Assembly (NCBI GenBank): GCA_025331445.1
Contig: JAIWNE010000050.1
Coordinates: 1-64,000 of the forward strand
Length of the DNA: 64,000 bases
Reading direction: 5' to 3'
Source: Blakeslea trispora
Taxonomy: Eukaryota; Mucoromycota; Mucoromycetes; Mucorales; Choanephoraceae
Part shown: positions 462-7,168 of the stretch, in pieces
How the letters are laid out: each line of letters begins with the position of its first letter
Position numbering within the stretch: position 1 is the first letter of the stretch
Made by a program: the position numbers and the translations under genes
Notes under the pieces: generated by a model
The model's input: the letters and a program-made list of their open reading frames with translations, nothing else
The model's database searches: none
Told to the model about the DNA's origin: nothing

Positions 462-1958
462 CAGGTCATCTCTTACTTGGTGTTGCTCATGACCTTGCAT
501 GTTACTTCAAAATGACTTTTGAGAAAAATAAATAATTGAGAAAAAATGTGTCTCGTTTATCACTCAATTTTTTTTTTTCAAGCGTAGCTAGTGAAAAGCA
601 TTAAAAATGCTCACTAATGGCTTTATCCATGAAAGATTATTCAGTGATGCTTCCCATATTATTTCCTAGGTCTCCAATAATGCCTAAATCAAAATCGAGC
701 ATGCCATTACATGCAAATATGCCTAGGGCAGTATCTCAGCCTTGAGACTCGTCCCAGACTCAAAAAAATTAATGTCGGAAAAGAATTTTAAGCAGTGAAT
801 TTCCTTTTTGAAATTTTTTTGAAGTATTTTTTAGTCTTCCAGCTAATTACTTATAAGATACGCTTGTTTTTTTTGATCTGAGACTCATAACTTTAAAATA
901 ACTTTCTGAGCCAATAAAATGCCTTCCCTGAATAATTGTGTTTATGACTTCTGTAAAACTGGCATTTTGAAGCACGGAAAGAACAAACTTCTCACAAACG
1001 TCCTCAATACAATAGTGCCAGATAATCCTCCCCTTGTGTCCACTAAGGCCGCAAGAGGTAGGACACACTACTATTTTTTATATGAATATCAAACCAATAT
1101 CATTTTAAATAAAAGCGGGTTCTTCCTCCTAAAACATTAAGTTGATCTTAACAAGTAAAAGCGGTTCTAAGCTAGAACCGAACAAATCTATTATCAAGTT
1201 TTTCTACAATGCAAGATCCCCAAACGTTCAAAAGCACAGTGTTTTGTGCCTCATCCTTCCTAATAACATAAAACTTATTGTTGTATTTTCTTTGCCTTTT
1301 GTTTTGTATATCTATTGTTATATGAATAAGGATTTACAGCCCATCTGAGTTCTCTTTAGCTTTGCCTAAGGACCATTCTATGTGTGTTTATGTTTTCGTT
1401 CCTATATATCAGATACTTGAGTTTTCTCTTCTCGATTTGTGCAAACTGTGACTCTAATCACAAATATAAGAGTAAAAATACAATAGGACTGTTCGTATAA
1501 TAGCATACAAATAGAGCTTTAGCTTGTTATGTGTCACCTTGTGTCCAAATATATCATTACTTAGAAATCTCTCCTGAAAGTTTTCTTTTAGTGCGAGAAA
1601 AATAACACAATGAATACAATTTGATAAAACTTCTCAGAACAATGAATTTATCGTTTGCTCATACCTACAACAAACTTGGAGTCTAATTATACCATATAGT
1701 TAAATAGGTTTAATGCCCTAGTAAAGTCTAACAGAGAGAGATACTTTGCTGACTACTATGAATTTTAAAATGAATAGTCTATCAACATACTGATTTAAAG
1801 GCTGTCAATTTAAAGAATCAGTCCTCGAAAAGGACAGCTTCATTTCTCGTCACACAGAGCCAAGTGTTCAGGATTGGAATATATATCTAGACATATATCT
1901 GATTTTCTTTCTTTCTTTTGCTTTTTAACAAATATTAAATAATTTTCTTTTTTGCACA
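462..1958. other. Intergenic, no gene recognised
   Basis: AT-rich DNA with only short frames lacking codon bias. A perfect short hairpin with arms GTCCT/AGGAC lies near 1821-1835. It may belong to the 5' flank of the Fanzor-like gene that follows. No terminal repeats could be matched to the downstream flank by eye. Confidence 0.5.
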
Positions 1959-4900
1959 ATGTCAAGTCGTCGAAAAGGCAAAAGGAAGGCTCAGGCTTTT
2001 AGGTATGATCCGGAGTCAACTCGCGTAAAAATCTTCCTGTTTTGAGATGGGTGTCTCAAAGCAAACGTCCATTTGGTGAAGTAGAATCTGAGGGACCGAG
2101 TAGCAGAAAGCGTATAAAAGGAAAAGGTCGCGAGGATGATGGTATGCTTTTAGAAGCTTTGCAACGAAGGCTAGAGGCAAAAATACGCAACATATTAAAT
2201 AGTGATGGTGATCTTCGTCATTTAAAAGAAACTTTACTTAAGTCTACAAGGTTAGAGAAGGGTGTAGTAACTGGTGATGAATCAAGTCATGGTTTTGCGG
2301 CTGGCTCTATTGAGAGATATATCAAGAGAAATAGAGCAACAAAGAAGAACCATCAATACTGGGTTGACCACGTCCAAGATGCATTCGATATTACTGTTGA
2401 AAATATGAGAGCTCAGCTTGCTACTCCAACGGCCTCTGAACCACATACTCCTGTAGCAGAAGCTCAAGGCTCCATTGTTGAACAACAGTCTAATCAAGAA
2501 CAGCGCAGAACCTTTACAATGGCCATGCGACAGATCATCCGAAAAGACTTAAAACCAGACATAAAAAATCATTTTATAAAGACTTTGAATGAAGCGATTG
2601 AGAATGTAACTGATTACATCTCCTGTTATAGTTTCAAGGTGTACTGCGCTTTTCTCTTGATGCTTAACTATGCATTTCTTATTGATGATGCAGGTGCTAT
2701 ATCTTTGCGAGAGTCTCGAGGTGAAGCTTTGTCAAACATTCTTCCAACTTCTGGGTCATCATCAAATCAAGAATTTCTGCCTCCTCCACTTGCACCAAAT
2801 TGCGTAGAATCTAGATTGTTTGAAAAGCTTTACAAAAACATCTTCGACCAGAGTCATCTTCAAATTATTCACAGTGCCTATTTTGGTTCTAAAGGTACCA
2901 GGCAAGACACCTTAAACAAGAACCCTATTATCAAGGCTTTTGTGGATGCAATGCCTCCTAGAGAGAACGAAAAATGTACTGTTGACAACTACTTGATGAA
3001 GAAAGCCTACTCCATGTATTTCGTAAACTTTAAAAACATGTGGACCTGCCCTGGTCGTTTTAGAAAGACACTAAACCAGCTACTAAGTCATTTACTGAGT
3101 ATCCACCTTGCCCCTGAGCAAACCAAACAGTATAAGCATTATCTCTCACAGTCAAAGCAAGATCGTCAAAAAACAAAGAAAACCCAAAATCATGTCTACC
3201 TGCCAGCCATTCCTTTTTCCTCAATTAGTTTGATTAATAACTCAAGAAGTCATCGACGAAATCTGTTCAAGAAAGAAAGAAACAAGCTAGAGACAATGCT
3301 CAAAAAATATAAAGAAAGTAATTTCCAAGATGAAAAATGGAAGACTAGAGCAGACCGCTGTCAAGTTAGAATAAATACGTACGAAGAAGTTTTGAAAAAC
3401 GAGGCAAGTAGTTTAGGATTAGTTGATACAATGTCAGGCTAATGTTTTTTTTGGGTTTCAACAGAGATCAGCAATTTCAAAAGGAAAACTAAAACAGCAA
3501 GAGAAACCAAACCTTATTGATGATGACGATAACGAGCTACTTGATCTCATAAACCTTGCCGAAGAACTTCCTGCAGCAGAAGGTCGCATTCTAGAGCTGG
3601 AAGACAATGCTACGCAAGGCAACAATGATACCCCCAGAAGAAGAATAAAAGCCTTGGTAGCTATTCTAAGAGCAACTTTGTATCCAAATCCTCAAGGAAA
3701 AATTACGTTACAACATTTTCAAGGTAAAGCTACCTAGCAAACAAAGTTTGTCCAAAGCATGACTGACCATTTGAACAAAATAAACTTCAGATTTGAGTCC
3801 AAAAGAATCAGACGTCTGCATGATGATTGCCAATGCAATCTCTCCCTACATGTCATTGCCAAGACATCGAAAATTTTTTCAGTATAATATTCCTTTCTTC
3901 TCGATGGCAAATACTATCTTTCGTGCTATCGGACAGACAAAGCGAATAGCCTCTCTTTGCCCTTTGACAAGCCCTTCCCAGTTGAATGCTCTCCATTTGG
4001 ATGCACCATCTCTTTTCAGTCTCTTTTGCGGAACTAACGCAAAAACAAATCCACTAAATGTTCATGATTCTGATGGGAACGTTATCACCACAAGACAACT
4101 TGCAACTGAACAAAAGGATGCTATGTTCAGTTTTTTTTTATTTGAGAAAACTACTTGCTATTTGTAAAAAACGGAAGCATGCGTTTGGTCACTACATGGT
4201 TATACTTCCTGGTGCAGAAACAATTCGTATCTCCAACATACTTGATAAAGCTTCACCAGCCAACACATGTCAGCCGATCAAGTCTCAAGAAGAAGCTCAG
4301 CCATCATCGTCTGCACCTATACCGGCTTCACCACTGGCTCCCAACACAAATTTTTCTAAGACTGAAGCCAACAAACTCCAACATGAAATAACTCAAGTAT
4401 CTAATCAGCTCAAACAAGCATGTAAGGCAGGAGGAGATTTTATTCTCAAAAACAAGATCAAGGAGCTGAAAGAACTGTGGGTGCTGCAAGATAAAACGAT
4501 GCGGAACAAAGCTCTCCGAGAAGAAGCAAACAAAGCTCTTGCGTCAAACCAAGATCTTTATGAACAAATAGCACAGATGAGAAGAAATCGAAAGCAGCTT
4601 GATGAAGATATCTATATTCAAAGAAACAAACTTAAAAAGCTAAGGCATGACGCCTACTTCCTGAGAAATCCTAATAGACAACAGCCTGCACAGACGTCTA
4701 CAAAAAAGATTACATCTGAAGAATACAAGTGTTTCGAGAATGTTGACAATGTAGCAATTGATGGGAGTATATTAGAAAAGCAAGACGAGGTTAGGTTTTC
4801 TGGGACTGATAATGGAATTGTCTCTATATCTGAAACAGCACCATTTTCTTTGAGAAAATTAAGATATCACCTCCAGTTATATGATACATACAAAACGTCT

Positions 4901-5743
4901 ACTTCTACAAATCGTAAGTTGTTATTACTGCTATTATTACTTAAACATGCTTACTGATTTACTTATAGCAACAGCATCAGACTTATCAACCATTGATAAA
5001 GAATTACTAAGTATTCCTAAGACATTCAAAATCAATCCCAGGGATTTGCATTTTCGAAGCGGTGGTTATGCTTTTCAACACAGTCTGCAACGTGCAAAAG
5101 CTATCCCAGAAGGTCAAGAAGTGCAAGCAGCGGAGGCAGTTCTCTCACAATACTCTCTAAAAACAGCTACAACTCTTGAAGATGCTAAAGTCGCATACAA
5201 TGTGTATCAAGAGCATAAGAATACATTAAGAAATTTTTATTACAGTTCTGCTCGCAATAGAAGTAAGAAGCGGTATGAAATGAGACAAGAAAAGACTTTT
5301 GATCGAACGTGCTCAGCTGAAAGGAGGTATGGCCAGCAACAACAACAACGACAAGCACTACATATTATGTTCGTGGGTGATAGAGGCTATGGTATTGGCT
5401 CGTCCATTCGAAGACACGTTCGTCTAGGTGGTTCATGGAAGCCGAAGAAGCATAGTCTTTATACATCAGTATGTATAACCAATGAACATAACACGTCTCA
5501 AGTCTGTGTTTTTTTTGCTTTGAAAAAATAAGTCATCCATTGAGAATGGTAGAGAAGGATGGAACAGAAAGTCTGAAAACGATCAATGGTACCTCTATAT
5601 GCAGCAACAAGGCTTGTGTTCTTAATTTAGCAAAACAATCCCACAAACCAAGAGACTCTCTTTCAGCCCTAGCCATTGGTATCTCTGGTGCATCTAGACT
5701 GATCGGCAAAGGAACTCTTGATGTATTCAACCCGTATCTTTAA
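1959..5743 (+). pseudogene. Fanzor/TnpB-like RuvC endonuclease gene, two homopolymer frameshifts
   Basis: Reconstructed exons are 1959-2002, 2047-3421, 3465-3723, 3791-4913 and 4969-5743, with GT-AG introns of 43-67 nt that keep frame. The protein would be about 1,150 residues. The C-terminal part carries the order of a TnpB/Fanzor RuvC nuclease: a GTDNG motif (Asp codon 4808-4810, candidate RuvC-I), an NEHNTS motif (Glu 5484-5486), a zinc ribbon (Cys 5505-5507 and 5516-5518, then 5600-5602 and 5615-5617) and an RDSLSA motif (Asp 5654-5656, RuvC-III). A Glu just before the TSxxC stretch matches the alternative glutamate position reported for eukaryotic Fanzors. The N-terminal half is lysine/arginine-rich with predicted coiled coils and is not recognised. 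Two T-runs (4131-4139 and 5509-5516) break the frame; the second falls inside the zinc ribbon. The lesions could be real decay or sequencing errors. Family assignment rests on motifs only. Confidence 0.7.
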
Positions 5744-5860
5744 CAAAAGCAATCAATTCTACATTGTACTCTTTTTTGCCGCTACTTTTCCTAAAACGAA
5801 ACAGAGCTAGGCTTACCGCCGATGGCGTGTGTGTACCTTTTAGGGTAAGTTTTTAAATGT
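5744..5860 (+). ncRNA. Candidate guide-RNA-like structured 3' region of the Fanzor-like gene
   Basis: Just past the stop codon lies a G+C-richer patch in very AT-rich DNA. CTTACC at 5812-5817 pairs with GGTAAG at 5844-5849, and inside it GCC (5818-5820) can pair with GGC (5824-5826). Fanzor and TnpB guide RNAs (omega-RNAs) overlap or follow the 3' end of the nuclease gene, so position and folding fit. Nothing shows that it is transcribed, and a chance stem of this size is possible. Confidence 0.2.
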
Positions 5861-6461
5861 TGATTTAAAATATTAATTAACCCGCTCCTTCTATCTACAT
5901 CCACATTTACTCATCCACTGCACTTTTAAACAAATTTGTAAGTTTTCATTTCAGTCAACTCAAACTTGGAATACTAACGTTTTTTGCGACTCATAGTGTC
6001 AATACCCTCTCAGTATTTTGGCTACAAAAAAGGAGATTTGAGCTACAAATGATCTTTAAAAGTCATTTATTCGTTTTCGAATAACAGAAATCAAAGAAGT
6101 CTGATTTGCTATAATTCCAAAAAAGTTCAATTGAAGCCTGCAATACAGTAGACATGGTTTGCTTATATCTCTAAAACAAATAAAGTGGCATGTATAGCCT
6201 TTGTAAAACCTTTGAGACCGTCTACTTATTGTTAAAACCGCATATATGAAAGATAGAAATTTCACAAGGATGATTCACAGCTAAATTATAAAAAAACTCA
6301 CACTCTCTGCGCAGTAGCGTTATTTCAAATCTCCCAGGATCGTTTAATTTATCATTTATTGAGATAGTCTATTTCTTTATGTAAAAAAACCTTTCGGTTC
6401 ACAAGTCATGATATTTCTAAATGAGTTTAATTTGTTGCACGTATTTGGAGAAAATGAAATG

Positions 6462-6469: not shown

Positions 6470-6715
6470 CTGTTTTCCTTTTAGTTTTTAGAGAGATGAA
6501 AAAGAGGAGGCAATAAGAAAAGGAACACTGGAGAAGATAGCAAGATGTGCAGCTAAAGATGAAGTCAAGATTTTGTCCTGCATTTGTTACACCACCGCTT
6601 TCAGATCAACGGAACGGAAAATCATAATTTTCCTTTTCCGAGGCCGTCATGCGGCTTAAATACAAGAGATCAAAATTGTTTTTCTTCTCAAACACGTCAA
6701 TTCTTTTTTCAAAAC

Positions 6716-7168
6716 ATGTACGCAAGCCTATACTCCAGCATTAGCTCACCTAGAACCTTTGCTCTTTTTGGTACTGGTATCTTCTCAGGAGTTACATTCA
6801 GTGTTAGTCATACTAGTGTTCCCGCTATTCTCGCCTCAAAGGATCCTCTACCTGTTTTTATCCAAACTTACAATCAAGGTGCGAGTGCAGCCATACCATT
6901 GATAGCTATGAGCTTAGTATCCAACGGCATCTGTTATTATCACCTGAGGGATCCCCGGTTCATCATGTCTGGATGCTTAAGCTTTCTTTGTCTACCAATC
7001 ACTAAACTTCTTATCATGCCTATTAACAATCAACTTTTTGCGATGGAAAAACTGGGAAGTGAATATGACAGAGAAAAGGTATACCAGCTAGTCAGAAAAT
7101 GGTCGGGTATGCATGCCTTGAGAACATTGTCCGCCTTTGTTGCATTTGCTATCCATGTTTTGTACTAG
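6716..7168 (+). CDS. DUF1772 (anthrone oxygenase-like) membrane protein
   Basis: Single-exon protein of 150 residues. The ATG at 6716 was chosen because it follows AAAAC and begins a hydrophobic protein; the in-frame codons upstream look like leader. It has four hydrophobic segments: an N-terminal one containing a GTGIFSGVTFSVSH stretch, a second after the PVFIQTYNQGA segment, a third around MSGCLSFLCLPITKLLIMPIN, and a C-terminal one following a KWSGMHALRTLSA motif. The NxxL/W...H.LR pattern and size are typical of DUF1772 proteins, the family containing fungal anthrone oxygenases. Most family members in fungi have no assigned substrate, and no polyketide genes are nearby, so an oxidase role is not claimed. 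It probably resides in an intracellular membrane. Confidence 0.65.
   Translation: MYASLYSSISSPRTFALFGTGIFSGVTFSVSHTSVPAILASKDPLPVFIQTYNQGASAAIPLIAMSLVSNGICYYHLRDPRFIMSGCLSFLCLPITKLLIMPINNQLFAMEKLGSEYDREKVYQLVRKWSGMHALRTLSAFVAFAIHVLY

Follow-up and report, generated by a model that had tools for sequence, protein, structure and literature searches.

A putative giant Fanzor1-like nuclease gene in a decayed, Crypton-ended transposon copy of Blakeslea trispora

Fanzor proteins, described as reaching up to ~800 residues, carry the RuvC-II Glu in an alternative position, i.e. ExxxxxxCxxC, and a RuvC-I DPG that has been called near exclusive in Fanzors (PMC10711439). For Fanzor1, the pattern D-X(125,275)-[TS][TS]-XX-C4 zinc finger-X(5,50)-RD has been given (Bao and Jurka 2013, PMC3627910), and an association of Fanzor1 with Cryptons is already on record (PMC3627910; PMC10711439). 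The MCi-2 Fanzor1 elements of Mucor circinelloides are reported with a 6-kb Fanzor-encoding region, without terminal inverted repeats (TIRs) and with flanking 11-12 bp ATAATTNNNN(N) duplications, one MCi-2 subfamily holding a partial Crypton transposase (PMC3627910). Most fungal CryptonF elements have 6-bp terminal direct repeats (PMC3212892). Here, we describe an element in the first 64,000 nt (the window) of contig JAIWNE010000050.1 of B. trispora, a fungus of the Mucorales (assembly GCA_025331445.1, forward strand; C232, 220,711 bp, in our numbering). We consider it likely that positions 729-6016 are a decayed, non-autonomous Crypton-type transposon copy, carrying as cargo a gene for a divergent Fanzor1-like nuclease of about twice the usual size, and with the mobility and maintenance scheme set out below.

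Nuclease motifs and predicted fold

The window gene shows, in order, GTDNG (4802-4816), FVGDRGYG (5370-5393), NEHNTS with the alternative Glu (5481-5498), CSNKAC, i.e. C-x4-C (5600-5617), and RDSLSA with the RuvC-III Asp (5651-5668). A first-pass annotation of this DNA had read GTDNG, NEHNTS, a zinc ribbon and RDSLSA in this order, and all are indeed in the sequence at 4802-5668. It had also proposed searching for further copies, and in the one genome scanned (37.2 Mb, 285 contigs) the frame 4863-5528 was matched at at least 80 places, window included, and the frame 2009-3439 at at least 58. Because of these at least 80 places, and because the Glu (30/30) and the RuvC-III RD (28/28 rows with a letter) are kept across alignment A4, the motifs are not a chance occurrence.

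The Glu precedes CxxC by six residues, which is the Fanzor arrangement and the alternative spacing claimed at first pass. ExxxxxxCxxC was present in 15 of the 21 sequences scanned; two of the six others stop short of the region (P0001, P0007), P0002 has the Glu with an altered CxxC, and the rest are P0003, P0013 and P0015. Besides the Glu and the RD, the family shares with Fanzor1 (SpuFz1, PpFz1, GtFz1) its carriage by eukaryotic transposons, a C4 ribbon with C-NP-C as in SpuFz1 and, in the predicted model, the WED-REC-RuvC order. Exon 2 of one paralogue (L034) satisfies the Fanzor1 pattern (X = 213, TS, four Cys, X = 11, RD), with D466, E677 and D733 of that exon as candidate catalytic triad. 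A slightly widened pattern is present in 26 of the 89 family proteins, a set with many fragments.

In contrast to the DPG of Fanzor1, RuvC-I of the family reads DNG, a point absent from the first-pass annotation, as were the Crypton ends and the broken state of the copy. The residue after the Asp is N in 17/19 and Y in 2/19 rows of alignment A1, and the pattern count gave N 16, Y 2 and P 0 among the 18 scorable of the 89 proteins. Since RuvC-I reads DNG instead of DPG, the family is filed here, on its sequence, as a divergent Fanzor1-like variant and not as Fanzor1 proper. It also differs from Fanzor1 by its weak match to PF07282 (13/30 members at E<=1, best 0.0012; 1/20 at E<=0.1 in another scan; 15.0 bits against a cut-off of 26.3 for the first member) and by its length. 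Complete-looking models have 1,129 (P0014), 1,262 (P0011) and 1,308 (P0010) residues, compared with mostly 600-700 as given for Fanzor1 (PMC11423790); another model of 1,345 residues (P0019) is without part of the RuvC region. If true, this would extend the size range of Fanzor-type proteins well past the ~800 residues described (PMC10711439).

Pfam and NCBIfam scans of the window frames gave nothing informative, and searches of the PDB with a single sequence or with alignment A1 returned irrelevant matches only. A 30-sequence C-terminal profile, i.e. the profile check suggested at first pass, had a single PDB match, the Spizellomyces Fanzor1 SpuFz1 (E 0.004). The structure comparison suggested there agrees: the AlphaFold model of a near-complete relative spans SpuFz1, and all six Foldseek matches at E<=0.001 are Fanzors (models of modest confidence), in line with the Fanzor-type relationship first proposed. 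The model shows the WED-REC-RuvC-TNB fold, P0014 aligning from residue 147-149 to SpuFz from residue 18. The N-terminal region, at first called unrecognised, is therein predicted to align loosely with the WED/REC lobe of Fanzor, in enlarged form; by eye, RRTFTMAMRQ at 2504-2533 matches the start of P0014's aligned part (a WED-like strand).

From TnpB of IS200/IS605 and IS607, the family differs by the alternative Glu, eukaryotic introns and a much greater length; no TnpA was seen, no profile search having been aimed at it. Fanzor2 is found on IS607-type elements with a serine recombinase, whereas the ends of the window element are of Crypton type.

The transposon copy, its ends and its decay

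The extent given at first pass, 1959 to 5743, agrees with the open-reading-frame (ORF) reading in its ATG and stop; as a unit, however, it is replaced by the whole transposon copy (Table 1). A genome scan for the end motifs (up to 3 mismatches left, 2 right) found the left end at 32 and the right end at 46 places, with 0 in the reversed controls. Same-strand pairs 0.5-12 kb apart numbered 15, i.e. nine at 3.03-3.16 kb, five at 5.29-5.77 kb (C13, C46, C284, C247 and the window) and one at 10.7 kb. Of the nine ~3-kb pairs, the sole one read (L079, on C167) is 3,029 bp long; its ends are the same, and its ORFs match, by eye, those of L077. L077 shares this left end and contains NDC10_II/GCR1_C domains, its right end not being found. 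By reading, no tyrosine recombinase with GCR1_C is among the listed ORFs of 729-6016, 729-1958 having had no profile scan. Because the ends match recombinase-bearing Cryptons of the same genome and no recombinase frame is among the listed ORFs, we classify the element, from its sequence, as Crypton-ended and non-autonomous. An IS200/IS605-like insertion, suggested by the CAGTAT layout, was rejected in view of the same ends on the 3-kb Cryptons (one of nine read).

The 6-bp direct repeats, the shared ends and the absence of a TIR by eye in the window copy are as in CryptonF, with a Fanzor-like gene instead of the recombinase. The left ends of C79 and C279 are unreadable and outside the CAGTAT count; the one deviating right end is CAATAT (C264), and C251 is truncated before the repeat. 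The likeness to MCi-2 extends to the Fanzor-encoding region, the lack of TIRs and the Crypton link, whereas CAGTAT replaces the MCi-2 duplications (PMC3627910).

Table 1. Features of the window element and its gene
Feature	Position	Strand	Evidence
Whole transposon copy, ~5.3 kb, Crypton-ended	729..6016	+	siblings align from ~727 to 6016-6020; shared ends
Left direct repeat CAGTAT (insertion-site copy; proposed target-adjacent motif, TAM)	729..734	+	7/7 readable left ends
Left end common with recombinase-bearing Cryptons	735..972	+	84% over 267 columns to L077, 63% over 254 to L079
Coding start (MSSRRKGKRKAQ...), frame break near 2030	1959..2036	+	ORF reading, copy alignment
N-terminal open frame, 477 residues	2009..3442	+	distant paralogues 19-41% identical, mostly 20-27%
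Second coding piece (open frame 3423-3737; acceptor ends near 3464)	3465..3723	+	
Intron GT...AG, 67 nt	3724..3790	+	donor GT in 8/8 aligned copies, acceptor AG in 7/8
Third coding piece; T-tract frame break near 4131; RuvC-I GTDNG 4802-4816	3791..4913	+	
Intron GT...AG, 55 nt	4914..4968	+	splice signals identical in 8/8 aligned copies
RuvC/zinc-ribbon coding piece; T-tract frame break near 5509	4969..5743	+	
3' non-coding stretch to right end (candidate guide-RNA region)	5744..6010	+	diversity among copies
Right direct repeat CAGTAT	6011..6016	+	8/9 readable right ends

The five exons of the first-pass annotation give way to about three introns and three frame breaks. The acceptor of the third intron ends near 3464, its donor being uncertain, and the acceptor G of 3724-3790 is altered in one copy (C79). 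The T-tracts at the last two breaks differ in length among siblings; the break near 5509 splits the zinc ribbon, and the motifs of the window copy are spread over three frames. An annotated 321-residue B. trispora 'hypothetical protein' (P0050) corresponds to parts of the window gene and omits the piece with the catalytic Glu.

The genome matches include seven near-identical copies and a truncated one (C251). As all eight aligned near-identical copies, window included, hold a stop or frame break, this subfamily is decaying. The ratio of non-synonymous to synonymous polymorphism (pN/pS) was 0.52 in the N-terminal frame (0.66-0.75 in the other frames) and 0.49 at 4974-5503 (0.70-2.29 in the other frames). 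Selection is nevertheless only weakly supported, since the four remaining coding pieces gave 0.97, 0.65, 0.68 and 3.23. The breaks in 8/8 copies would fit a dead gene family devoid of present function, but paralogues are stop-free over 859 or 869 residues at 12 places (859- and 869-type; upstream frames of 500 or 516 residues) and copies compared within one subfamily are 95.9-99.6% identical, which makes a dead family quite improbable.

For the Crypton-ended, Fanzor1-like element, we infer the following scheme. A tyrosine recombinase from the 3-kb Cryptons of the same genome would recognise the common ends and recombine the CAGTAT repeats, mobilising the element in trans. The nuclease, as modelled on TnpB/Fanzor, would bind an RNA read through the element's right end, the 3' part of which would be flanking host sequence. 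After excision, this guide would match the restored empty site adjoining CAGTAT, and CAGTAT would serve as TAM; the nuclease would cut there, and repair from a remaining copy would restore the element. The Crypton ends thus yield a sharp prediction, i.e. that CAGTAT is the TAM.

At L080 (C222:106650-106900), a Crypton left end directly follows AACCTCTCAGTAT, a Crypton right-end-like sequence, as if one element had inserted at another's end. The terminal 37 bp on the right of the window element recur at C264:413203-413239, near a distant nuclease paralogue (C264:413877-415937). A Crypton left end at C243:133038 lies ~650 bp before a TIR-type right-end block of 142 nt (see below) at C243:133693, which may be a nested or hybrid element.

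The right-end block of the TIR-type paralogues

The younger genes, of the 859/869-type, reside in elements other than Crypton-ended ones. The 859-type elements end in imperfect ~24-bp TIRs accompanied by 8-bp duplications; five of six end pairs compared by eye are identical and the sixth differs at one base. The 869-type right end is the same, its left end not being reached. We consider it very improbable that the protein acts as the element's own transposase or is some unrelated enzyme of the RNase H fold: no other long gene was seen in the element, but window ends match recombinase-bearing Cryptons while paralogues sit in elements with TIRs and 8-bp duplications, and the best fold matches are Fanzors.

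The two subfamilies have 51% protein identity, whereas the last ~142 nt of their elements agree to 90-100% in each 20-nt step and, in the case of the C2 copy, to 97% overall. This block contains the right TIR and 53 coding nt before the stop. Outside it, 35-79% of nucleotides agree per 25-codon block. The same codon is used at a fraction of 0.95 in the last 25-codon block and of 0.25-0.73 in the other blocks with at least four shared residues. The 5' regions read of 859- and 869-type elements showed no match.

The block was found at 40 places with 90-100% identity (40 of 79 candidates scored), 33 of them beside a nuclease match and seven not, judging by eye. A 1.2-kb stretch was read at four of the latter (L081 and L084, C230 and C112; L082 and L083, C272 and C216), all of them gene-less and retaining only the last ~70-80 codons and the right end. 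Two have a left TIR and form elements of ~753 nt with 97.5% mutual identity; the 1.2 kb read of the remaining two showed no left TIR. In Spizellomyces, gene-less 'ghost' loci are described as sharing a 75-nt right-end region with Fanzor loci, which acts as omega RNA (PMC10432273). By this analogy, which is suggestive only, the ~142-nt block is a candidate guide-RNA block.

The window 3' region shows neither unusual RNA folding nor an Rfam match at gathering scores. The ~142-nt block folds only weakly better than shuffles, and conserved ordinary transposase ends could resemble such a block. Along the window 3' end, diversity among 8 copies was 0.011 at 5677-5826, 0.031 at 5827-5976 and 0.006 at 5977-6016; at the left ends, folding was somewhat more favourable than in shuffles (z about -1.8). 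The change of RuvC-I from DPG to DNG, the lack of an RNA signal in the window and the large added regions would suit a Fanzor-derived RuvC nuclease acting in the transposon without an RNA guide, e.g. in DNA binding or nicking at the ends. We regard this as unlikely, as the predicted WED-REC-RuvC order is kept along the length and the paralogues retain a right-end block, conserved in its nucleotides, that reaches into the 3' part of the ORF.

A more serious possibility, albeit not the one we favour, is that the block and the gene-less elements reflect transposase recognition and recent end recombination only, in which case the nuclease may still be Fanzor-like. Both ends are kept in two of the four gene-less elements read, the right TIR lies inside the block, and its folding is as stated; but ~142 nt far exceeds a ~24-nt TIR, the block extends 53 nt into coding sequence with synonymous sites almost unchanged, and the 5' regions read do not match (again without the 869-type left end).

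If the block is instead part of a guide RNA, it is tempting to extend the Fanzor1-like reading to a Mucoromycota lineage of giant, active RNA-guided nucleases. Its protein-divergent subfamilies would share one ~142-nt right-end guide scaffold, which gene-less elements carry as well, and a single nuclease could then act in trans for many elements. Where the element is Crypton-borne, the 6-bp recombinase core CAGTAT would double as TAM and couple tyrosine-recombinase excision to RNA-guided copy-back. Taken jointly, these claims are tentative, and we would sooner doubt than accept them as a whole. Regardless, a single genome that combines numerous young open copies with gene-less elements and a long, conserved right end offers a natural setting for asking what RNA-guided nucleases do for eukaryotic transposons.

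Relatives elsewhere and neighbouring elements

Genomic relatives outside the window subfamily have 25-57% identity to the 4863-5528 frame and 19-41% to the 2009-3439 frame. Homologue searches listed 18 and 78 matches, B. trispora's own included, among them relatives in Choanephora, Mucor, Rhizopus, Parasitella, Phycomyces, Backusella, Benjaminiella and Helicostylum, as well as in Haplosporangium, Benniella, Actinomortierella and Entomortierella, the last four being Mortierellomycota. A search with residues 1-900 of P0010 gave four matches, query among them. None of the listed family records holds a Pfam domain, and their names are 'hypothetical', 'uncharacterized', 'unnamed' or unrelated, e.g. 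'Up in starvation'; the family would add a lineage without a Pfam domain in any record found. P0010 comes from M. lusitanicus CBS 277.49, which we take to be the genome used in the MCi-2 study. Part of the family may already be listed among the MCi elements (PMC3627910).

In the Choanephora model P0018, the zinc-ribbon end of the nuclease is preceded by a long, unrelated-looking N-terminus that by eye starts like a zinc finger; this may be an insertion or an annotation chimera. PF07282 was matched directly at ten places in the B. trispora genome, six above the cut-off (L001-L008 among the loci concerned), and the L001 fragment resembles the C-terminus of an ordinary Fanzor; the genome thus seems to hold canonical, partly degraded Fanzors alongside the giant family.

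One 859-type element is interrupted by a 362-residue frame that is Tc1/mariner transposase-like by eye (L067:409-1497, minus strand). Located 3' of the Crypton recombinase gene, L077:3144-5362 holds two frames, one weakly matching FAR1 (below cut-off) and the other containing a SWIM zinc finger, which hints at a Mutator-like element (MULE)-type transposase. Just 3' of the window element, a 201-residue open frame at 6563-7168 is hydrophobic by eye.
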